Of a stretch of DNA of 25,520 nucleotides, positions 5,002 to 25,091 are shown piece after piece (the first letter of the stretch is position 1; each line of letters opens with the position of its first letter). Source of the DNA: a virus. The stretch is from the IMG/VR virus record IMGVR_UViG_3300028837_002239, positions 1 to 25,520 of that record; one strand, written 5' to 3'. A program made the position numbers and the translations under genes. A model generated the notes under the pieces. It saw only the letters and a list, made by a program, of their open reading frames with translations. It did not search any database and was not told the origin of the DNA.

Positions 5002-6354
5002 TTATTGAGGATTATGAGCAGTGTACAGATCACCTACAATACCAGTGGTATCCATGTAGAAAGATGAGAGCGGGTTGTTGAACTTCATGCTCAGCATACC
5101 TTGAACCCACCATTCTGTGTAATCTTGAATAGAACCATACTGTCCCTTAGGAGCAGTTTGTCCCAGTTCAATGGACTGGTAACCGGTCATACATACTGGA
5201 TGTATAGTCTCGGTATCCAGAACAAAGATACGATGTTGCCATGTAACCGGGAAGCACGAAACTTCTTTGAACAATTCTGTAGATACAGGAACGAAGTTCA
5301 TATCTCCGATCTTGTAGATACTCAGGTTCAGGTCACCAATACGATCATCCGGACGATAACGCAGACCGGTTTCTTTCCAGGCCTTAGACAATTCATACAG
5401 AAGCGCGTTCTGTGCAAAAATGAATCTTACTCCACCTTCAGATTTGTAATCGGTTTCAAAAGCCAGAGCTTCAAAGGATTCCTGTAAGGTAGCCTTGGTT
5501 ACTCCAGAAGCAGAAGCAGATCCAGCAGCAACCATGGCCGGGAAAATTCCCTGCATAGTCATTGCCTTATAAGGAGCAGAACCATCAGTACCAGGTACTG
5601 TGATATTTACTTCGCCTCTCATACCATTCCACAATGAAATGAACATATCTTGAAGTAACAGATCCATCTGTTCTTTCTTGTCCAACTGGAAGTAATTGGT
5701 ATTGGCAAGGTTAGCAAATTTCTGCATTTCCTTACGACTCCAACGCTTATCACGATGCATTAACTGGATGTAATTGTATCTCTCAATTTTGGACATCCTA
5801 TCGTAATGAGTCAGAAAGTTCTGACCATCAGCGATAACTGAAGTCTGGATAGCAAAATAATCATCTTCTGCAACAGCAGGAAGGTTAGGAGCACCATTAA
5901 ACTTCTGAACGGTAATTGTTTCTGTGCCGGTATTAACGACTTTAACAATACCTTTTGAGTTGTCAGGATAAACAATAACCTTATTGATGGTCACATTAGC
6001 GGTTCCGCCTGTAGTCAAGACAATGTCTTGAGTGGCACCACCAGCTACACCAGCAGAAGCCTTAAGAGCTACACGCCCAAAAGTTTTCTCCAGGTAAGTG
6101 AATACATCATTAGCTTCATATTGAACGGGCTTGTCCATAAGCAACCGCAGAGCGGAATACTTCTTGGGTACCGCGTCAAAGATCTCGCGAGCAATCGCTC
6201 TGCGAATCAGAATAGTCTCGTCATAACTAAATTCCGTGGCATATTCTGAACCTATTGGTTGTAGATTCCATGGAGCCGGCGCATGAACCGCTGAGGGTTG
6301 TACCGGTGATGGGGTTGCTACATAGGAATTTGGATTGTTGAAAGGATCAGCCAT
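5002..6354 (-). CDS. Major capsid protein (HK97-fold)
   Basis: 450 aa, the expected size. N-terminal residues 1-40 are Pro/Ala-rich and disordered. The body has HK97-type phrasing: an N-arm helix region (ETILIRRAIAREIFDAVPKKYSALRLLMDKPV), a likely inserted beta domain around residues 85-165 (TGGTANVTINKVIVYPDNSKG... and TETITVQKFNG), a long spine-helix region (YNYIQLMHRDKRWSRKEMQKFANLAN), and the A-domain pattern FIFAQNALLYELSKAWKE plus IYKIGDMNFVPVSTELF. It forms the icosahedral shell. It lies directly after a scaffold-like gene and before a strong terminator, typical for the most highly expressed virion gene. Identification is by context and fold phrasing; no experimental signature is visible. 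Confidence 0.85.
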   Translation of the reverse strand: MADPFNNPNSYVATPSPVQPSAVHAPAPWNLQPIGSEYATEFSYDETILIRRAIAREIFDAVPKKYSALRLLMDKPVQYEANDVFTYLEKTFGRVALKASAGVAGGATQDIVLTTGGTANVTINKVIVYPDNSKGIVKVVNTGTETITVQKFNGAPNLPAVAEDDYFAIQTSVIADGQNFLTHYDRMSKIERYNYIQLMHRDKRWSRKEMQKFANLANTNYFQLDKKEQMDLLLQDMFISLWNGMRGEVNITVPGTDGSAPYKAMTMQGIFPAMVAAGSASASGVTKATLQESFEALAFETDYKSEGGVRFIFAQNALLYELSKAWKETGLRYRPDDRIGDLNLSIYKIGDMNFVPVSTELFKEVSCFPVTWQHRIFVLDTETIHPVCMTGYQSIELGQTAPKGQYGSIQDYTEWWVQGMLSMKFNNPLSSFYMDTTGIVGDLYTAHNPQ

Positions 6355-10438: not shown

Positions 10439-12689
10439 ATTGATGCATGTTATTAATTTCCTTCACAGGAACCCGGATCAAATTAAAATCCGCATCCCTG
10501 ACCAATTTATATCGAATCCTAGTCTTCGAGAACTGACTATTCAATCGATAAGTTCTCATATGGGAACAAGCAATTCGTGCTATGTATGCATATGTAAGCG
10601 CATCCAAAGCATCATCATAATGCATTAACTTGTTCAACGGTTCCCAGGTTTCTTTCCCGGTTGCCGACATTTTATATGCAAAGGTACTCAATTGATCGAA
10701 GAAAACCGAAATATAAATATTATGGTGATAGTTTCTAAATACTTCCGTCATATATTCTATGACGGCATCTGCTCGTAATCCCTTCTTATCCAGACCAATA
10801 TCCCTGGTACCTCCTTGAACTTTGGCCGGGAGTTGTGTATTAAAGATCAGCGAATTCAGGAACCCCTTACTCTCTTTATAGTCACTATAGTTGGTTCCAA
10901 TGTTCGCTTCAATAAGTTCTTTTACTCCTAATTTTACTTTATTTTCTACATCATAGTATAATCCTAACAATACAACTTGTAGGAATGCATACTTATGATC
11001 ATGCTGTTTTCTGAAGTTCACTAAAGCAGGACAAGTTTTTAAATGATCATCCCATATTGCGCTAGACATTTTTGAATGCCCAGTCTCTGTAGCAATGGGG
11101 TCTGTTCCTTGCCAATACCTATTAACCCAAAACTGCTCCGGTTTTTGAAACATCCAGGTTGTAGCCTTGTGATCATGATCCGGATCATCCTCATCGAGAG
11201 CAACAAATCTCGCATCAATGATACGATATGGAACATCACTCTCTGGAGGCATGGGATCATCATAATCATAGATTGGTTCAAAATATCCCAGCGTAGGCCG
11301 GGCCCTGGGTCCCATTAGTCGACATCTTTCCAATCCTCCTTCTATAATTTCCCTAGACACTAAGGTACTTGAGTTACTCAAGAACATATCCTTGAAGCTG
11401 GATGGATAGTGCTGATGGAACTGGATTTTTGATGTCTCCAGATCAATATCTCTTTCCTTGGATCTAGACCCATAATACCAAGCTTTCTCCTTTTCGTATT
11501 CCTCTTTATTCAACCTGCTGTGCCAGCTAAAGAATAAGGGAACGAATCCGGATTCAAACTGTTTGGCTTCCCATAGACCTAAGATCCGGTACCATTCTTT
11601 CTCATAAGCTCCCTTACCTTTGTCCATTTCACCACCAGTACCCCACATCCAAATCTGACGCCTGAGTGTAAACTTGCCAGTCTTTGGATCATTCCAGAAC
11701 ATGGTTGGCCTTGCTTCATTCAGCATGGGACCAAGTATACCAATGTTTCCAATTTCATCCACCAGAGCCAGCTGTGGAGATCCACCATTGATTGCGGTTT
11801 TCTTGGGGGCAACCACATCCACCCTACTATTTGGGTATCCTCTCTTACCTTTCCCAGGTTTATCTGATAACCAAAATCTGGTACCGCTATCTGATTTTAC
11901 GGGAGGCTGCAGCCATCTAGGCAGGGCCCCGAATGGATATTTTAACTTATCGGTGAAGATCTCCTCAACGGTATCCTTATCTTCGGCTATGAACTTAATA
12001 TAATAGTTATTGTGTATCAACATCATTTTCAGGGCTATGATACCCATGGCTGATGTAAAACCAATCTGTCTACCCTTACCACCTATCACATTATAGCGAC
12101 AATCGAATAGATAGTATATAACGGCATGATGTTCTTTTGCATAGTACTTCATCATACCAGAAATGGCATCCCCTTCTTTGAGTTCACCATATTTGTTTGC
12201 AAAGTATAAAGTATTTTCCTTAATACGGTTTCGCTCCTGGTTGGTGTATTCCCGCTTAGAATCATCATCCTTGTAATTGGTTATATTATCCTTCTCCTGG
12301 AGCCAGCGATAGGCTTGTGCTTTATATTTTTCAAATTTGGGATACTTTATGGCTTGAGGAAATGGGCCATAAGTAATAGAATTTATCCAATCAATAAAAT
12401 CTTGTTTGTGGTATAAGTTACTTTCCGGAAGCCAGTCCTCCTTTGTAATCCCTGGTTTGAATCTTGCAAATTCAGCCGGCTTACAAAAGGGATCATTTAC
12501 CCAACGCTTTACTTTCTTCTGTTGGATCTGCTGGCTGGGGGTCATCTTAATAATGGTAGGTCCTTCTTTGATATAGCCCTCCCTGGTCAACACTTCTATC
12601 TGTTGACGATTTAAAGTACCCTTTTGATACTGTTTATGTAGAAATGTAAGGTACCGCGTTTTTGCAGCATCCTTAGCTGAAATAGCCAC
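10356..12689 (-). CDS. terL: Terminase large subunit
   Basis: 777 aa. The ATPase half carries a deviant Walker A, GGKGRQIGFTS (residues 203-213), a Walker B LALVDE (307-312) and the coupling motif GTGG (350-353). The RNase H-like nuclease half has the first catalytic Asp in YWQGTDP (D530) and the distal acidic motif YDDALDALTY (691-700). It cuts concatemeric DNA and drives it through the portal. In T4-type terminases the P-loop usually reads RQxGKTT; here Lys is replaced by Phe (GFTS), and the upstream Lys in GGKGRQ may take its place. The N-terminal 150 residues are longer than in many relatives. The C-terminal 28 codons overlap the next gene. Confidence 0.92.
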   Translation of the reverse strand: MAISAKDAAKTRYLTFLHKQYQKGTLNRQQIEVLTREGYIKEGPTIIKMTPSQQIQQKKVKRWVNDPFCKPAEFARFKPGITKEDWLPESNLYHKQDFIDWINSITYGPFPQAIKYPKFEKYKAQAYRWLQEKDNITNYKDDDSKREYTNQERNRIKENTLYFANKYGELKEGDAISGMMKYYAKEHHAVIYYLFDCRYNVIGGKGRQIGFTSAMGIIALKMMLIHNNYYIKFIAEDKDTVEEIFTDKLKYPFGALPRWLQPPVKSDSGTRFWLSDKPGKGKRGYPNSRVDVVAPKKTAINGGSPQLALVDEIGNIGILGPMLNEARPTMFWNDPKTGKFTLRRQIWMWGTGGEMDKGKGAYEKEWYRILGLWEAKQFESGFVPLFFSWHSRLNKEEYEKEKAWYYGSRSKERDIDLETSKIQFHQHYPSSFKDMFLSNSSTLVSREIIEGGLERCRLMGPRARPTLGYFEPIYDYDDPMPPESDVPYRIIDARFVALDEDDPDHDHKATTWMFQKPEQFWVNRYWQGTDPIATETGHSKMSSAIWDDHLKTCPALVNFRKQHDHKYAFLQVVLLGLYYDVENKVKLGVKELIEANIGTNYSDYKESKGFLNSLIFNTQLPAKVQGGTRDIGLDKKGLRADAVIEYMTEVFRNYHHNIYISVFFDQLSTFAYKMSATGKETWEPLNKLMHYDDALDALTYAYIARIACSHMRTYRLNSQFSKTRIRYKLVRDADFNLIRVPVKEINNMHQYEEREDFRSPQRQARRISESLPGAETH

Positions 12690-12975: not shown

Positions 12976-13683
12976 TTATAAATACGGTTCGTACCGCTTA
13001 TTGTAATTCAATCCTTTAAGTTTTCTGCTACGAGCCAGTCTAATCCCAGCATCCGTTATTTCTAACGGGATCTCCCTGGTAACAGCTTCTTGGTGTTTTG
13101 GTTCCTTCAACTCTGTAAACGGACCAAAAGCACTAAAGTTATTATTATATACTTTTTCTAGCACCTCACGCTTGTTCTCCGCCAGAACCTGGTGTACCGG
13201 CTTCGGATCATCTGTAAAGATAGATGATTGACCGTTGCTAACAAATAAATAATCAACCCCCATACCAAGTTCTACATATCTCCTAAGTATAGTTGAAATA
13301 TCTTCATTATCTATGTATGAACGCTCTTTTATAATCTCTAACAATTCCCCAGGTAATCTAATGGAAGTGCTGGTCAACACAGGTTTAGAAGAATAATTAA
13401 ATTCGTAACTGTTATTGTGCTGAATATTATAAAGTTTATGTGTCTTCTGGTACTCCTTTATCGCCTTCTGTTCCGCACCTAAAGCCAAAGCTCTAGTCCG
13501 ATGAGAGGACAAAACCTCTAACGTGAAAGCCTCCTTACCATGCTCAGCAATGGCCTTCTTGATCTCTTTTCCCGATCCTAGATAGCCATCCCATTCCTTT
13601 CCAGTTTTATGGCATCCTATATATTTCATACCATTAACCGAATTGGTCACTACATAAACACAATATTGTTTTCCGTCTTTCAC
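12976..13683 (-). CDS. GIY-YIG endonuclease with ribbon-helix-helix segment
   Basis: 235 aa from the GTG at 13683. The GIY-YIG nuclease core is residues 8-80: CVYVVTN, KYIGCHK (20-26), a GYLGSGK loop (33-39), then GKEAFTLEVL and an alpha-helical end. Residues 105-141 (TSIRLPGELLEIIKERSYIDNEDISTILRRYVELG) have the strand-helix-helix pattern of an Arc/MetJ-type ribbon-helix-helix DNA-binding domain. Free-standing GIY-YIG enzymes in phages are often homing endonucleases; beside TerL it might also act in packaging. A well-formed promoter (13688-13719) overlaps the codons of two upstream TTG starts (13701, 13698), so translation probably begins at this GTG on an almost leaderless mRNA. The next ATG would remove the GIY motif. 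Confidence 0.75.
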   Translation of the reverse strand: MKDGKQYCVYVVTNSVNGMKYIGCHKTGKEWDGYLGSGKEIKKAIAEHGKEAFTLEVLSSHRTRALALGAEQKAIKEYQKTHKLYNIQHNNSYEFNYSSKPVLTSTSIRLPGELLEIIKERSYIDNEDISTILRRYVELGMGVDYLFVSNGQSSIFTDDPKPVHQVLAENKREVLEKVYNNNFSAFGPFTELKEPKHQEAVTREIPLEITDAGIRLARSRKLKGLNYNKRYEPYL

Positions 13684-13687
13684 ATTA

Positions 13688-13719
13688 CAAAGATACAACA
13701 AATAAATTTAAGAACCAAA
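13688..13719 (-). promoter_or_regulatory. Bacteroidota-type promoter driving the packaging operon
   Basis: On the minus strand TTTG (13719-13716) and TATCTTTG (13695-13688) are 20 nt apart. The start of transcription should be near 13684, one base before the GTG of the GIY-YIG gene. This would be the leading promoter for terminase and portal. Confidence 0.75.
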
Positions 13720-18702: not shown

Positions 18703-18899
18703 CACATAAAATGATGCCTCTCAACCCCTGCCCAGGGGTGAACATAAGCGAAGAAGATATGAAGGAGTTGATCATACTCATACGCAAGGTTGGATGGGAA
18801 ATAGCCCTGCTTAATACCGGTAATAGTGCTGATCTTGTAAAGGGCATGATCATCGGAAATAAGGACTATGTTGAATACATTTTAAGCGAATTACCATGA
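18699..18899 (+). CDS. Hypothetical small protein (66 aa)
   Basis: 66 aa, helical (ISEEDMKELIILIRKVGWEIALLNTGN and ADLVKGMIIGNKDYVEYILSEL). It overlaps the genes on both sides by ATGA, so it is translated with the 322-aa protein and the lipoprotein. No motif recognised. Confidence 0.5.
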   Translation: MTHKMMPLNPCPGVNISEEDMKELIILIRKVGWEIALLNTGNSADLVKGMIIGNKDYVEYILSELP

Positions 18900-19375
18900 A
18901 AAAATTAATAACATTATTATTACTTGCAACTTTATTAAGTTGTAAATGTTATCTGCAACAGCCTTTAACACAGTTTATATATGTAGATTCTACCTGCACT
19001 GCCATCATTCCAGATTACCTTCCACTGGCGATTATATGGGATAACTGTGATGGTTACACTGTTACTCAAACTCCTCCGGCTGGGGCTTCTATGGAATCTA
19101 GCTATGGAGTTGTAACGATAAAAGTTATTGATGAATTTCAGAATGCGGATTCAGTAGTGTTTGATATTATCAAAGTTGATACTATAGCACCTACTATAAC
19201 TATTGATACGGCCCTTTGGAATAACTGGGTTCCACCTATAGTGGACAATGATTCTATGATCCTAGTTACCATTACCGGACCGGGTAATGCAGGCTCCTGG
19301 GGATTTCTAACAAATCCAGGAAAGCATGTAGTAGTTATGAATGATGAACAATTTGATAAATATTGGGAACAATGA
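18896..19375 (+). CDS. HYR-like domain lipoprotein (159 aa)
   Basis: 159 aa. It begins MKKLITLLLLATLLSC, a type II signal peptide with lipobox LLSC (Cys 16). Residues about 35-100 follow the HYR (hyalin repeat) pattern: C34 with pD downstream, WDNCDG (C50), TQTPPAGAS, a beta strand, D..GN-like DEFQNAD, then VDTIAPTI. HYR domains are immunoglobulin-like adhesion modules common in Bacteroidota surface proteins. Anchored to the host's outer or inner membrane it could block superinfection or mask a receptor; this is inference. Overlaps its neighbours by ATGA at both ends. Confidence 0.7.
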   Translation: MKKLITLLLLATLLSCKCYLQQPLTQFIYVDSTCTAIIPDYLPLAIIWDNCDGYTVTQTPPAGASMESSYGVVTIKVIDEFQNADSVVFDIIKVDTIAPTITIDTALWNNWVPPIVDNDSMILVTITGPGNAGSWGFLTNPGKHVVVMNDEQFDKYWEQ

Positions 19376-19836
19376 AAAAATATGTAATAGTAGATATTGA
19401 TGGTACAGTTGCGATCAATAAAATACGACAACAGAACATTCTTGAAGGCCTAAAGACCACGAAGGTTGAGGAAATGCCGTGGGAGGACCTGTTTGATGGT
19501 TGTGAGAATGATTCTCCAATTGAGCCAATAGTCGGCCTAGTGAAAAAACTAAGTAATCATTATCAGGTAGTTTTCTGCACCAGTAGAAATATTGCCTTCC
19601 GGGACCGGACCAGGGGTTGGATCGATAGATTTACCGGTTTAAACCTGGCTCCTTTATTGATGCGGAAATCTCCAGATGATCACAGATCCGATACCATAGT
19701 GAAACCAGAACTCCTGGAGGAGGCCGGGATTACAACTGAAAATACAGCATTCATTATTGAGGATAAAAATTCTACGGTACAGGCCTGGAGGGATCTTGGA
19801 TTTACCGTACTGCAGCCGGCCAATAACGAATATTAA
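19372..19836 (+). CDS. Polynucleotide 3'-phosphatase (T4 Pnkp-type HAD domain)
   Basis: 154 aa from the ATG at 19372, which overlaps the previous stop; an upstream TTG is less likely. HAD motifs: DIDGT (8-12, nucleophile D8 and acid D10), TSR (70-72), LLMRKSPDDHRSD and K111, then IIEDK (128-132). The phrasing LMR...D.R.D...K...L and the end VQAWRDLGFTVLQ closely follow the phosphatase half of T4 polynucleotide kinase-phosphatase, which removes 3'-phosphate or 2',3'-cyclic phosphate from broken RNA. The kinase half is absent. The stop is followed one base later by the RNA ligase, so the two form an end-healing and sealing pair. Confidence 0.82.
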   Translation: MKKYVIVDIDGTVAINKIRQQNILEGLKTTKVEEMPWEDLFDGCENDSPIEPIVGLVKKLSNHYQVVFCTSRNIAFRDRTRGWIDRFTGLNLAPLLMRKSPDDHRSDTIVKPELLEEAGITTENTAFIIEDKNSTVQAWRDLGFTVLQPANNEY

Positions 19837-19837
19837 T

Positions 19838-20755
19838 TTGAAAGAATTCGCTAAATATCAACACATTGAACGTTTTGGCCATGATAAGGTAGCCGACATC
19901 AACCTAGGTCTTTGTCACATATTCTCAAAGATCGATGGCGCCAATGCCAGTGTATGGTTAGGAGATGATGGGAAGATACATGCCGGCAGTAGAAAAAAGG
20001 AGCTATCAGAGGAATTTGATAACCACGGCTTTTATAAATATATTACTCAAGACAAGCGCATAAGGGACCTCCTGAATGCCAGACCAGAGCTTCGCCTTTT
20101 TGGAGAATGGCTGGTACCACACACTTTAAAAATATACCGGTTTGACGCCTGGAGGAAGTTTTACGTATTTGACGTTACGTACTTTACACCAGAGATGGGG
20201 ATTCGCCATATGCCATACGATATATACAAGGATCTCTTGGATCAGTATGAGCTTGATTATTTGGCTCCTATAGCTATAATCAAAAATCCGACCTATGATA
20301 GACTAGTGGATCTTCTTGATAAAACTATGGATCTCATCGAAGATGGGAAGGGGCCAGGTGAAGGCATTGTAATTAAGAATTATGATTTTATCAATCAGTA
20401 TGGTAGAACTACCTGGGCTAAGATAGTTCGGGCTGAATTCAAAGAAGAATTCCACAAAGCCATGGGTCCTCCTAACATTAAAGAAAAGGGCATCCTGGAA
20501 GAAAACATAGCCAGGGATTATATCACCGAAGCTATGGTCGATAAGGTTTATGCTAATATCGTCAACGAGCAGGGAGAATGGAAATCACAATATATCCCTA
20601 GATTGCTAAGTACCGTATTCCATGATTTGGTTAATGAGGAGATATGGACTATTATTAAGAAGTATAAGAATCCGACTATTCACTTCGACATGTTATTAAA
20701 ATTCACAATACTCGTAATTAAATCACTTAAATCTGACTTATTCTTAAAAAAATGA
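19838..20755 (+). CDS. RNA ligase (PF09414-like, Rnl2-type nucleotidyltransferase)
   Basis: 305 aa from TTG 19838, immediately after the phosphatase stop; a longer frame from 19757 would overlap that gene deeply. Nucleotidyltransferase motifs in order: I, KIDGAN (K31 is the adenylated lysine); GSRKKEL (50-56); III, LFGEW (87-91); IIIa, FYVFDV (108-113); IV, GEGIVIK (174-180); V, WAKIVRAEFKE (193-203). It joins 3'-OH and 5'-phosphate RNA ends with ATP. Residues beyond 210 form a helical C-terminal domain. With the 3'-phosphatase next door, it likely repairs host or phage tRNA or other RNA cut by host nucleases, as T4 Pnkp and Rnl1 do; the actual substrate is unknown. Confidence 0.85.
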   Translation: MKEFAKYQHIERFGHDKVADINLGLCHIFSKIDGANASVWLGDDGKIHAGSRKKELSEEFDNHGFYKYITQDKRIRDLLNARPELRLFGEWLVPHTLKIYRFDAWRKFYVFDVTYFTPEMGIRHMPYDIYKDLLDQYELDYLAPIAIIKNPTYDRLVDLLDKTMDLIEDGKGPGEGIVIKNYDFINQYGRTTWAKIVRAEFKEEFHKAMGPPNIKEKGILEENIARDYITEAMVDKVYANIVNEQGEWKSQYIPRLLSTVFHDLVNEEIWTIIKKYKNPTIHFDMLLKFTILVIKSLKSDLFLKK

Positions 20756-21186
20756 TTATTAATATGGAAACAATTAAAATATTTTTGTGGGCCTTATGGA
20801 TGACCATGGCTGTAGCCGGCTTGGGCTCCCTAATAGATATTGTACTTATCAAAAAGGGTCACTCAGATAAGCTGAAACCTAAATGGTTATGGAATTTGGT
20901 AGAAGGGGTTATAATTGCTAGTTTGATTTGGCTGAAATTTCCCGGCGCTATTCCATGGTGGTATTTTGCTTGGCTGCTGTTTACAGTGGTACCAATATGG
21001 TCAGCCCTTCATGATTGTTGGATAGGATTGGGCTTAGCAGGAGATCCCTGGTATCTTGGTCTAAGTAAATGGGACCGGAAGATGGCTGCTATATTCAACC
21101 AGTTCGGCGTTAGGCCGGGTAAACTATTTCTGTTATTTAAATTATTCTGGTTCGGTATACTTTCTGCTGGATTTTTTAGCTTGTAA
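20752..21186 (+). CDS. Multi-spanning membrane protein (144 aa)
   Basis: 144 aa, start ATG overlapping the ligase stop (ATGA); a second in-frame ATG four codons on is an alternative. Hydrophobic segments at about 5-28, 48-64, 66-88 and 120-143 suggest three or four membrane helices, many Trp. The loop around 95-115 is rich in Gly/Trp/Arg/Lys. It may be a lysis, exclusion or transport protein; sequence does not tell. It lies before a holin-like gene. Confidence 0.65.
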   Translation: MIINMETIKIFLWALWMTMAVAGLGSLIDIVLIKKGHSDKLKPKWLWNLVEGVIIASLIWLKFPGAIPWWYFAWLLFTVVPIWSALHDCWIGLGLAGDPWYLGLSKWDRKMAAIFNQFGVRPGKLFLLFKLFWFGILSAGFFSL

Positions 21187-21275: not shown

Positions 21276-21506
21276 ATGTTTAGTTTAAATTTTAAGAAAA
21301 ACCCGATCACTACTGTAGTAGGGGTCTTGTTAATCGCAGTTGGATTATTTCCATTTATTTTCCCTGGCAGGGTAACAGTTGATGAAGCTGAACAGTTGAA
21401 GGGCCTGTTGACCAACCTTGGGGCGAATGTGGAAAGTGTAATTGAAATCTTATTAGGTATTGTAGCCATCTTTGCAAAAGATGTAGCTGCCGTAGCCCAG
21501 GACTAA
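21276..21506 (+). CDS. Holin-like small membrane protein (76 aa)
   Basis: 76 aa. A basic N-terminus (FKKN), a membrane helix at residues 11-31 (TTVVGVLLIAVGLFPFIFPG), a short amphipathic middle, and a second weaker hydrophobic segment (55-67, VIEILLGIVAIFA). Size and topology fit small phage holins, though other small membrane proteins look alike. It has its own duplicated promoter and its own strong terminator, so its level can be set independently, as expected for a lysis-timing protein. Confidence 0.6.
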   Translation: MFSLNFKKNPITTVVGVLLIAVGLFPFIFPGRVTVDEAEQLKGLLTNLGANVESVIEILLGIVAIFAKDVAAVAQD

Positions 21507-21537: not shown

Positions 21538-21572
21538 ACCCCCTCGGGCGCCCTGCCGGAGGGGGTTTTTTA
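21538..21572 (+). terminator. Strong rho-independent terminator
   Basis: Perfect 8-bp stem ACCCCCTC/GAGGGGGT with a GC-rich, partly paired loop, followed by TTTTTT. It isolates the holin-like gene from the peptidase gene downstream. Confidence 0.88.
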
Positions 21573-21587
21573 TTGAATGAATTTTTA

Positions 21588-21619
21588 TTTGACATAGTAT
21601 CGAAAAAAAGGTATCTTGC
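21588..21619 (+). promoter_or_regulatory. Probable promoter for the clan CD peptidase
   Basis: TTTG (21588-21591), 20-nt spacer, TATCTTGC (21612-21619), which departs from TAnnTTTG at its last two positions. Start near 21623, about 35 nt before the ATG at 21658. Confidence 0.55.
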
Positions 21620-21657
21620 ATACTTAGATCTGTAAATTTTTGATTATACGAAACCAC

Positions 21658-22860
21658 ATGAAAAAAATCCGTTTAAAAAAGTTATTGGTATTACCTGTGA
21701 TAGCCCTTCAGAAATTGGGACACCTTTCTGTGCAAGTTGTGAAGACCCTTCAGAAATGTTTACATTTTTTTGTTAGGTTATGGCTCCGGATTAGAAAGGT
21801 AGTATTGATTTCAATGTTTTGTTTGTCGATCAGTTTGGGTGGAGTCACTTCTTATTGGTTATATCAGCATTTCAGTCAACCCCATGAAAAATATGTAGTA
21901 TTAATATCTGGAGGTGAAACCAATTATGATAACAGAATGGTCCATTCAGAATACTGGTATGATTTAGTTATGACTTATAAAAGTTACATAGATCAGGGAT
22001 ACACCCATAAAAATATATTTGTGTTTTACGGCCAGGGGCCCGGCCATGATTTCGATAGCCGGTATGATCATTATGATATCGATACTTATTTTCCCGAAGT
22101 GGAAACTATTATTGATTACGATAATAGCTGGGAAACCATACAAAGCGGATTAAAAGAAGTTGATTTTTATGTCACCAAGCATGATAAAATAACTATTCAA
22201 TGGGTCATAGGCCATGGTGGAGTACCCGACGGTTATCGGGGAGATGAATATAATTCGTATAGAGCTTATATTGAGGGAACCAACCAGTCTTATCACACAA
22301 AGGAAGAAATTTATAGGGCCATAAATCAGATTGATGATTTTAAACAGCGTGAAATATATTGGATGACTTGTCATGCTGGCTCAATGGCAGTTGGTGTAAA
22401 TAAATTTTCCGACTTCCGTACAACTATCCTAACCTCATCTAGCTGGGATGAATATTCTTATTCATCTTGTCCAGGCGGTTATGATTATTGGTGGGGGGGA
22501 GGTGTTGGAGGATATCTGTCTGCTGAATTTAATTGGGTTCTATACGGAATCACACATAGACAATATTTTGATGGTACAGAGTATCCTTTCTATCATAGTA
22601 ATTTGGAATATCCCATTACCCCTGCTAAAATGTATAATGAATTAAAGCATTCATCTTATATTACTTCACATGCACAAATTGGTGGGCTATCTCCAGACGC
22701 GGTATATTGCTATGTAGTGGATACGTTAGATGATTGGTATATTAAAGCAAAAGTTCCAATGCACAAAGTACAGCGTTTCTTTAAGCGTATATGGAAATTT
22801 CGGACTCATATTAAAGATACAATGATTTATTTTCTAGGATATGAGCCTATTAATCGTTAA
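21658..22860 (+). CDS. Membrane-anchored clan CD cysteine peptidase (legumain/C13-like)
   Basis: 400 aa from the ATG at 21658. A long basic N-terminus (1-46) precedes one membrane helix (about 47-69), so the rest probably faces the periplasm. The catalytic domain (76-340) opens with KYVVLISGGETNYDNRMVHSEYWYDLVMTY and NIFVFYGQG, like the first strands of legumain-type peptidases. The catalytic His lies after a hydrophobic strand, IQWVIGHGG (H186), and the Cys after the next, IYWMTCHAGSM (C238), the clan CD signature (legumain has a hydrophobic strand, then EACxSGSM). After C238 come Trp/Tyr/Gly-rich SSWDEYSYSS and YDYWWGGGVGG, possibly the substrate pocket. Targets are unknown; envelope remodelling at lysis or cleavage of a host membrane protein are possibilities. 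Its own promoter suggests separate timing. Confidence 0.78.
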   Translation: MKKIRLKKLLVLPVIALQKLGHLSVQVVKTLQKCLHFFVRLWLRIRKVVLISMFCLSISLGGVTSYWLYQHFSQPHEKYVVLISGGETNYDNRMVHSEYWYDLVMTYKSYIDQGYTHKNIFVFYGQGPGHDFDSRYDHYDIDTYFPEVETIIDYDNSWETIQSGLKEVDFYVTKHDKITIQWVIGHGGVPDGYRGDEYNSYRAYIEGTNQSYHTKEEIYRAINQIDDFKQREIYWMTCHAGSMAVGVNKFSDFRTTILTSSSWDEYSYSSCPGGYDYWWGGGVGGYLSAEFNWVLYGITHRQYFDGTEYPFYHSNLEYPITPAKMYNELKHSSYITSHAQIGGLSPDAVYCYVVDTLDDWYIKAKVPMHKVQRFFKRIWKFRTHIKDTMIYFLGYEPINR

Positions 22861-23144: not shown

Positions 23145-23489
23145 TTAGAATATGAACCTGAGCCAAGCGTAACGTTTACGATTTGACAAGTATTCGGGTA
23201 CATGTTCAAAACAATTTGCTTCTCGCTCGAATGAAACGGCATCATAAGCTTTGTAATGGTTCCAAAGTAACATAAGCTTTATGATATACTCGATACTGTA
23301 CCAAAAGTAAAATAAGATCCCTCCCATTTCCTTTTGCTGTTCCCAGTGAGTTTTCTCATGACGTACCAGGTCGTTATATAGCTTATAATACAAAACCTTG
23401 GTTTCCTTCCGTAGAAAGATCCCAAGGGGCCATAAACAGATCCCCCAGTACGCTGGACCAGGGAAGTTCTTTGTGTGGTAGATTTTCAT
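23145..23489 (-). CDS. Small zincin-like protein with HExxH motif (114 aa)
   Basis: 114 aa from ATG 23489, which overlaps the stop of the upstream membrane protein (ATGA); a longer frame from 23549 exists but would overlap that gene. The centre reads LVRHEKTHWEQQ, an HExxH zinc motif, and KAYDAVSFEREAN downstream gives a plausible third ligand (Glu), the gluzincin layout. Two hydrophobic stretches (ILFYFWYSIEYIIKLMLLW) lie between. Short proteins of this pattern (HE..H..Qq, Y..Y....FE.EA) recur in Bacteroidota and their phages as I recall; their substrates are unknown. It ends the minus-strand right-arm operon. Confidence 0.65.
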   Translation of the reverse strand: MKIYHTKNFPGPAYWGICLWPLGIFLRKETKVLYYKLYNDLVRHEKTHWEQQKEMGGILFYFWYSIEYIIKLMLLWNHYKAYDAVSFEREANCFEHVPEYLSNRKRYAWLRFIF

Positions 23490-23647
23490 ACGAAATACAT
23501 TATTAAAGCAAACATTACAAATATCGCCAAGAGCAATATCCAGTTCCACGGAGACGGAGGTTTAATTGGTTTCCGACGCCTCGATTTGATGTCTTGCCAG
23601 CCATCATATATATAATGATCACTGAATCCTATAAGTGTATGTCTCAT
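23486..23647 (-). CDS. Small single-span membrane protein (53 aa)
   Basis: 53 aa. A basic, Pro-rich first half (DIKSRRRKPIKPPSPWN) and a C-terminal membrane helix (WILLLAIFVMFALIMYFV, residues 36-53). ATGA overlaps with both neighbours (start in the end of the 87-aa gene, stop in the start of the zincin gene) are strong support for a real gene. Possibly a spanin-like, holin-like or anchoring partner of the zincin. Confidence 0.6.
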   Translation of the reverse strand: MRHTLIGFSDHYIYDGWQDIKSRRRKPIKPPSPWNWILLLAIFVMFALIMYFV

Positions 23648-24248: not shown

Positions 24249-25091
24249 TTAATTTTTTATTATAATACGATTTAATTTTTCTGTTGTGTCAATCTGGAAC
24301 CCGGCTGCCCCAGCATGGCCTCCTCCACCAAACTCCTTGCAAATGGTAGAAACATCAAGTTTACCATCACTGTATAGGGATACGACCCATTTCTTTCCAG
24401 TATAATGAAAGCAGCCAAAGAACTCCTGAGTATAACCAATATCGAAATTCGATGGATTAAATCGTGTAGCATTGACCATCAGACCTTTATGGCCTAGTAT
24501 CTCGACGGGGAACGCATTCTTAATAGTCGATCCGGCTTCTGTTTTCAGATATCTGAAGATATTCTTTCCGGCAGTAATCCAGGTCTTAGCGCTCAGTGTT
24601 AGTAATTGAGCTGCTTCTTCCGGATTGGAAACATTGGCCCTGGCTGCATATTGGAAATGCATTACCTTTTTCTGTGTTTTTAGAGACTGCTTCATATGCC
24701 GGAATGAATCATACAACCCGGCCAAATGAACCCCCTCTGGCATTTCACCTTCATGGGTGTAGTCCCAGGTCAGCTCACAAGCAGCATATTCGGAATTCCT
24801 GATACCATTTACCAGGGCATATCCATGCTTTTCTGAATCCCGGATAGCGGAAATGTGATGATCAATCCAAATAACGTGACTTGGAAGTATTTGCATGGTT
24901 TCTGGATCGAATGAGATATCCACCAGGAATACCAGGTCGTAGTAGTAGAAATCAATAGTGTCCGGTACCGGATCTCCATAATCCCATCCCATCAGGGTAG
25001 TATCGGGATAACGGTCTTTCACTATGGCCGCACTGGTCCATCCGTCCAGGTCGCGGGAGTGGTAAAAACATAATACTTTCTGCTTATTCAT
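24249..25091 (-). CDS. DHH-DHHA1 family phosphoesterase
   Basis: 280 aa. DHH domain motifs: H11-SRDLDG with D14 and D16, FLVDISF (D58), WIDHH (DHH at 77-79). The DHHA1 domain carries GGGGHAGAAGF (255-265), the usual substrate-binding glycine loop. The family hydrolyses short oligonucleotides (nanoRNase), pAp or linear and cyclic dinucleotides with Mn2+. In a phage it may recycle nucleotides or destroy a host signalling nucleotide used in defence; the sequence does not separate these. It is shorter than bacterial NrnA (about 310-340 aa). Upstream is a 30-nt A/T-rich leader following a zinc-ribbon gene. Confidence 0.85.
   Translation of the reverse strand: MNKQKVLCFYHSRDLDGWTSAAIVKDRYPDTTLMGWDYGDPVPDTIDFYYYDLVFLVDISFDPETMQILPSHVIWIDHHISAIRDSEKHGYALVNGIRNSEYAACELTWDYTHEGEMPEGVHLAGLYDSFRHMKQSLKTQKKVMHFQYAARANVSNPEEAAQLLTLSAKTWITAGKNIFRYLKTEAGSTIKNAFPVEILGHKGLMVNATRFNPSNFDIGYTQEFFGCFHYTGKKWVVSLYSDGKLDVSTICKEFGGGGHAGAAGFQIDTTEKLNRIIIKN

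Follow-up and report, generated by a model that had tools for sequence, protein, structure and literature searches.

Legumain-family (C13) proteases are known from eukaryotes and as secreted bacterial proteins. Within this family, GPI8 is a component of a multi-subunit complex of eukaryotes, and its membrane anchor sits at the end opposite to that of the phage protein described here. The catalytic triad of human legumain consists of Cys189, His148, and Asn42, the last of which is essential for protease activity (PMC9604545), and the S1 pocket of the enzyme is lined by Arg44, His45, Ser216, and Asp231 (PMC4357240). As annotated caspases are present in giant viruses of protists, clan CD peptidases in viruses as such are already known. 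A phage C13 peptidase is not described in the open literature that we searched (preprints and subscription papers lay outside its scope), and a search of the 50,697 phage records of INPHARED with four queries yielded no C13 homologue.

The gene considered here lies on an IMG/VR virus record of 25,520 bases, which was analyzed over its whole length and is called the window in the following: It occupies positions 21658–22860 of the plus strand, to which all its features given below refer, begins with ATG (an in-frame TTG is found upstream at 21640), and encodes 400 amino acids followed by a stop codon. The sole hydrophobic segment of the protein is a predicted membrane anchor at residues 48–70 (21799–21867), where the best 19-residue hydropathy window begins at residue 48 (48–66), and the 47 residues N-terminal to it carry a net charge of +12. 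Because of this charge an N-in/C-out orientation is expected, which would place the catalytic domain in the periplasm. A sequence-only reading of this DNA had proposed a single anchor in the membrane and a place at the envelope, and prediction agrees with both. The anchor is followed by a predicted extracytoplasmic peptidase domain (residues 74–355; 21877–22722), which is the best-conserved part of the protein, and by a basic amphipathic C-terminal segment (residues 364–381; 22747–22800; hydrophobic moment 0.68). With the ATG as start codon, the putative catalytic residues carry the numbers that the same reading had given them, namely His186 (22213–22215) in a strand-HG motif, GHGG, and Cys238 (22369–22371) in a strand-Cys motif, TCHAGSM; they align with His148 and Cys189 of legumain, respectively.

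Searching IMG/VR, we found five homologous loci. As several of them are identical, they add two different sequences to that of the window: L001 (identical to L002 and L003) shares 76–78% of its residues with the window peptidase, and L005 (identical to L004) shares 51–53%, with 164 of 283 positions identical over residues 73–355. Further profile scans of viral contigs with family alignments returned the same five loci. Together with the empty INPHARED search, a total of three distinct sequences in IMG/VR agrees with the supposed rarity of such enzymes in phages. His186 within GHGG and Cys238 within TCH[AS]G[SC]M are invariant in all three. Between the window and G001, the record that contains L001, we obtained a dN of 0.13 and a dS of 0.59, and the resulting dN/dS of approximately 0.22 indicates that the peptidase is under purifying selection. 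Both this ratio and the presence of homologues in other phages argue that the open reading frame is a genuine coding frame.

The assignment to a peptidase family had to be approached via profiles: The phage proteins have no direct family match in Pfam, PHROGs, or NCBIfam, none of the three matches the curated C13 model PF01650, and direct Pfam matches to C11 clostripain or C25 gingipain, which had also been named as relatives, are likewise missing. A phmmer search of the PDB with the single peptidase sequence gave chance matches only. The best match of a profile built from the three phage proteins among all PDB sequences is legumain (6xt5), weak at E = 0.21, with the Cys motif in register; against the PDB legumains and GPI8, this profile scores 36.9, whereas the best of 100 column shuffles reached 25.8. 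In the profile–profile alignment, His186 and Cys238 fall on the C13 catalytic residues. When compared by hhalign with an enlarged C13 set, which includes proteins reached via the phage profile, the phage profile obtained a probability of 97%, a single-comparison E-value of 2e-11, and a score of 80.9 (shuffle maximum 21.2), whereas a bacterial C14 set, small with n = 4 sequences, yielded a probability of 25% and a score of 31.4. Owing to this composition of the C13 set and the single-comparison nature of the E-values, our argument rests on the shuffles and on the independent Pfam match of a bacterial protein, L049.

This protein was reached through intermediates. A profile search of 395 Bacteroidota genomes retrieved the secreted proteins L032 (E = 1e-24) and L033 (E = 2e-14), whereas a single phage protein as query found no match in the genome contigs. 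L032 matches PF01650 with E = 9e-4, just short of the curated cut-off, and a profile that includes L032 and L033 led to L048 and L049, the latter of which exceeds the PF01650 cut-off with 45 bits versus 22.8. The chain of intermediates to C13 hence runs from the window via L032 to L049. In a phylogenetic tree the phage sequences come together as a single clade (support 100/99). This clade and the Bacteroidota proteins share a group (96/95), which lies on the C13 side of the tree and separate from C14. A viral scan with the host relative L032 matched no virus. C14-type matches to the profile with the Bacteroidota relatives (L051–L054, L057) were set aside as distant, and other weak matches in Bacteroidota genomes (E between 4e-5 and 0.07) were not counted: Several are broken by stop codons, most are short, and one, L031, is an open reading frame without the motifs. 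Taken together, the sequence comparisons support the placement of the phage protein in clan CD with C13 (legumain/GPI8) as the nearest family and C14 scoring lower. The clan assignment of the sequence-only reading accordingly stands through the profile–profile match and the intermediates reaching PF01650, and weakly through the comparison of folds.

For this comparison we used AlphaFold2 models of the phage protein, one computed from the three phage sequences (pLDDT 42.5) and one from seven sequences, among them C13 domains of Bacteroidales (pLDDT 44.4). These low-confidence models predict strands at residues 177–184 and 230–237, ahead of His186 and Cys238. Foldseek placed legumain and GPI8 first for the seven-sequence model (E = 1.5e-4), the input alignment of which contained C13 sequences; for the phage-only model it returned weak matches only, caspases among them. 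VIA-align ranked legumain/GPI8 chains first for the phage-only model with a top Z-score of 9.3 and an rmsd of 4.4 Å over 165 aligned residues, which is near chance level, as are generally the model matches to legumain and GPI8 at 4–5 Å. Giant-virus caspases appeared as weak fold matches. With a pLDDT of 42–44 the models do not independently demonstrate a clan CD fold; they weakly suggest likeness to legumain/GPI8, which is agreement and not proof.

A comparison of the active sites shows what the phage protein shares with legumain and where the two part. Common to both are the order of strand-HG and strand-C-x-[SA]-G-S-M, an alignable first strand and helix region, and an alignable Cys loop (TSSSWDEYSY versus TAANPRESSY). 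In the S1 pocket, the Ser216 column of legumain corresponds to the invariant phage Ser267, and the Asp231 column is insecurely aligned. The segment His96-Ser97-Glu98-Tyr99 (21943–21954) aligns with legumain Asn42-Tyr43-Arg44-His45, so that in the phage proteins the Asn42 column is occupied by His96 (an alignment-dependent assignment), Arg44 by Glu98, and His45 by Tyr99. Glu190, the activity brake of legumain, is replaced by His239. Moreover, legumain has a cleaved signal peptide and a C-terminal prodomain, in place of which a membrane anchor at the N-terminus is found in the phage protein. As Asn42, Arg44, and His45 are all replaced, a specificity for Asn is not expected and the protein is not a typical legumain; judging from these residues, the phage enzyme probably accepts a P1 residue other than Asn, and the charge reversal at S1 perhaps favors a basic one.

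GPI8/PIGK, which is among the best fold matches, likewise has a membrane-tethered C13 catalytic domain, and its TCQ..[ST]M motif is close to TCH.GSM; the phage protein differs in being anchored N-terminally and in having no known partners. Both the profile search and the tree identify the secreted C13-like proteins L032, L033, L048, and L049 of Bacteroidota as the closest relatives of the phage protein. L032 shares with it the motif SEYWYD, including a Glu at the position of Arg44. In these four proteins we recognized apparent signal peptides as well as additional modules at the C-terminus (beta-helix, coathanger domain), but neither the retained anchor nor the basic C-terminal helix of the phage protein. 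A further type of C13 architecture is found in the lipoprotein-like Bacteroidales proteins L024–L030, in which an apparent periplasmic ligand-binding region is fused to a legumain-like C13 domain with intact RHQAD. C14 caspases and metacaspases, including those of giant viruses, have the clan CD dyad and the predicted core topology in common with the phage protein, but reach clearly lower profile scores than C13 and stand on the opposite side of the tree.

We then considered the locus. The peptidase gene is preceded on the plus strand by a 76-codon small membrane-protein gene (21276–21506), the intrinsic terminator of that gene (approximately 21539–21573; 21550–21566 in the scan), which is also found in the sister phages G001 and G698, and a promoter-like site, TTGACA-17-TATCTT (21589–21617), conserved in G001. 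This site scores best in the region, but since the scan yields no more sites than shuffled sequence, its conservation is the better evidence. It is mainly this conservation, together with that of the preceding terminator in G001, which bears out the earlier proposal that the gene has its own promoter. G698, 88% identical to the window in a conserved structural protein (window 5002–6354), has the same neighbors and terminator, yet the next gene follows immediately and the peptidase is absent from the site; a profile search of the whole G698 record, which contained no positive control of its own but used a profile that was strong in another search, found no peptidase either. Its absence from an otherwise conserved site identifies the peptidase as an accessory gene of the lineage.

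Several other genes of the window deserve mention in their own right. Together, a PNKP-like phosphatase (Pfam HAD_PNKP) and the RNA ligase adjoining it (19363–20755, plus strand) make up an RNA-repair pair; as neither G001 nor G698 has a match to the ligase, this is another accessory gene in the vicinity of the peptidase. A small predicted lipoprotein (18896–19375, plus strand; lipobox LLSC) is conserved at 68% in G698 and weakly in G001. On the minus strand, positions 23145–23549 encode 134 residues that include a hydrophobic segment and an HEKTH motif resembling that of zinc metalloproteases; we found no family match for this protein and, by tblastn, no match in G001 and G698. A homing-endonuclease-like protein is encoded beside large structural and packaging genes (12976–13701, minus strand), with a weakly related stretch at a different place in G698, and a DHH/DHHA1 phosphoesterase-like protein, possibly a nucleotide or cyclic-nucleotide hydrolase, is encoded at 24249–25091 (minus strand).

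Outside this lineage, a C13-like gene is carried by G005, which a muzzle protein match (E = 1e-199) identifies as a crAss-like phage (Crassvirales). When the window or G001 was compared with G005 by tblastn (threshold 1e-5), the peptidase was the only matching gene. Being the one gene in common with an otherwise unrelated phage, it has crossed between phage lineages. Crassvirales is described as an order infecting Bacteroidota (PMC10136315), and this link, along with the phylum of the cellular relatives, leads us to infer a Bacteroidota host for the window phage as well. G005 further contains, at 11990–29023 of its record (L061–L062), a single open reading frame of 5677 codons with many domain-like segments, of the polyvalent-protein or virion RNA polymerase type.

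From these data we propose the following mechanism. The phage protein would be a clan CD cysteine endopeptidase on a divergent branch next to C13, held in the inner membrane by a non-cleaved N-terminal signal anchor with its catalytic domain in the periplasm. Cys238 would attack the peptide bond and His186 would protonate the leaving group. Given Glu98 and Tyr99 in S1, the P1 residue at which it cuts is probably not Asn and perhaps basic. The gene would be of the accessory (moron) type, acquired from secreted Bacteroidota C13-like proteases, exchanged between phage lineages, and, in the lineage of the window, expressed from its own promoter. During infection the enzyme would cut host envelope or exported proteins, for example altering surface receptors against superinfecting phages or disarming an envelope-located host response. 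An accessory, self-promoted, and transferable envelope protease is best explained by modification of host envelope proteins during infection, and we consider this reading as a whole reasonably probable; that it serves superinfection exclusion or anti-defence in particular is possible but the smaller chance.

Other functions have to be weighed against it. The peptidase might mature or release a structural or ejected phage protein, such as the giant protein of G005: In that phage the C13-like gene starts 24 nucleotides after the 5677-codon frame, on the same strand and among virion genes, an arrangement that a virion or processing role fits at least equally well. The lineage of the window, however, has no homologue of the giant frame, its peptidase gene lies among non-structural genes on the strand opposite to the structural genes, a signal anchor would hold the enzyme in the membrane, and G698 manages without the peptidase, which renders a phage-protein substrate unlikely. 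The predicted envelope location and the adjoining small membrane-protein genes (20752–21186 and 21276–21506) would also suit an accessory to lysis that disrupts the envelope or degrades periplasmic proteins late in infection, together with the neighboring small membrane protein. The latter had been called holin-like, a link that did not hold up, as the 76-residue protein matches no Pfam or PHROG family and the recognizable endolysins of the lineage are encoded elsewhere: In G001, an amidase endolysin and a glucosaminidase lie 13–19 kb from the peptidase. Given this distance of some 13 kb to an endolysin, the terminator between the peptidase gene and its small neighbor, and the fact that G698 retains this neighbor without the peptidase, we do not favor a holin and lysis cassette and regard a lysis role as rather improbable.

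Two further explanations concern the chemistry itself. With its TCxxSM-like motif as in GPI8, the replacement of Asn42, and the existence of ligases within C13, the protein might be a pseudo-enzyme or a transamidase or ligase of the GPI8/butelase type, joining instead of hydrolyzing; the invariance of His and Cys within the most conserved part of the protein argues against this, and we know of no GPI-like acceptor in bacteria, so that we give this explanation little credence. The missing direct family match and the low-confidence models could finally mean that an unrelated membrane protein resembles a peptidase by chance. This is very improbable, since the profile–profile scores lie far beyond those of shuffles, the dyad is conserved, and the chain of intermediates to PF01650 largely refutes it.

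The envelope-protease reading can be drawn further: The phage proteins may constitute a phage-specific C13-like branch with a charge-reversed S1 pocket, tethered to the inner membrane of Bacteroidota and spreading as a single-gene cassette between unrelated phages, Crassvirales included, which sheds or inactivates host envelope proteins against competitors or envelope defence. In this full form the idea is speculative and we would not expect every part of it to hold. That selection keeps a membrane-tethered form in two phage lineages unrelated to each other points to a host envelope protein that is worth cutting during infection. The gene offers a single-gene, testable way into host-surface modification by Bacteroidota phages, crAss-like phages included, and possibly a protease of new specificity.
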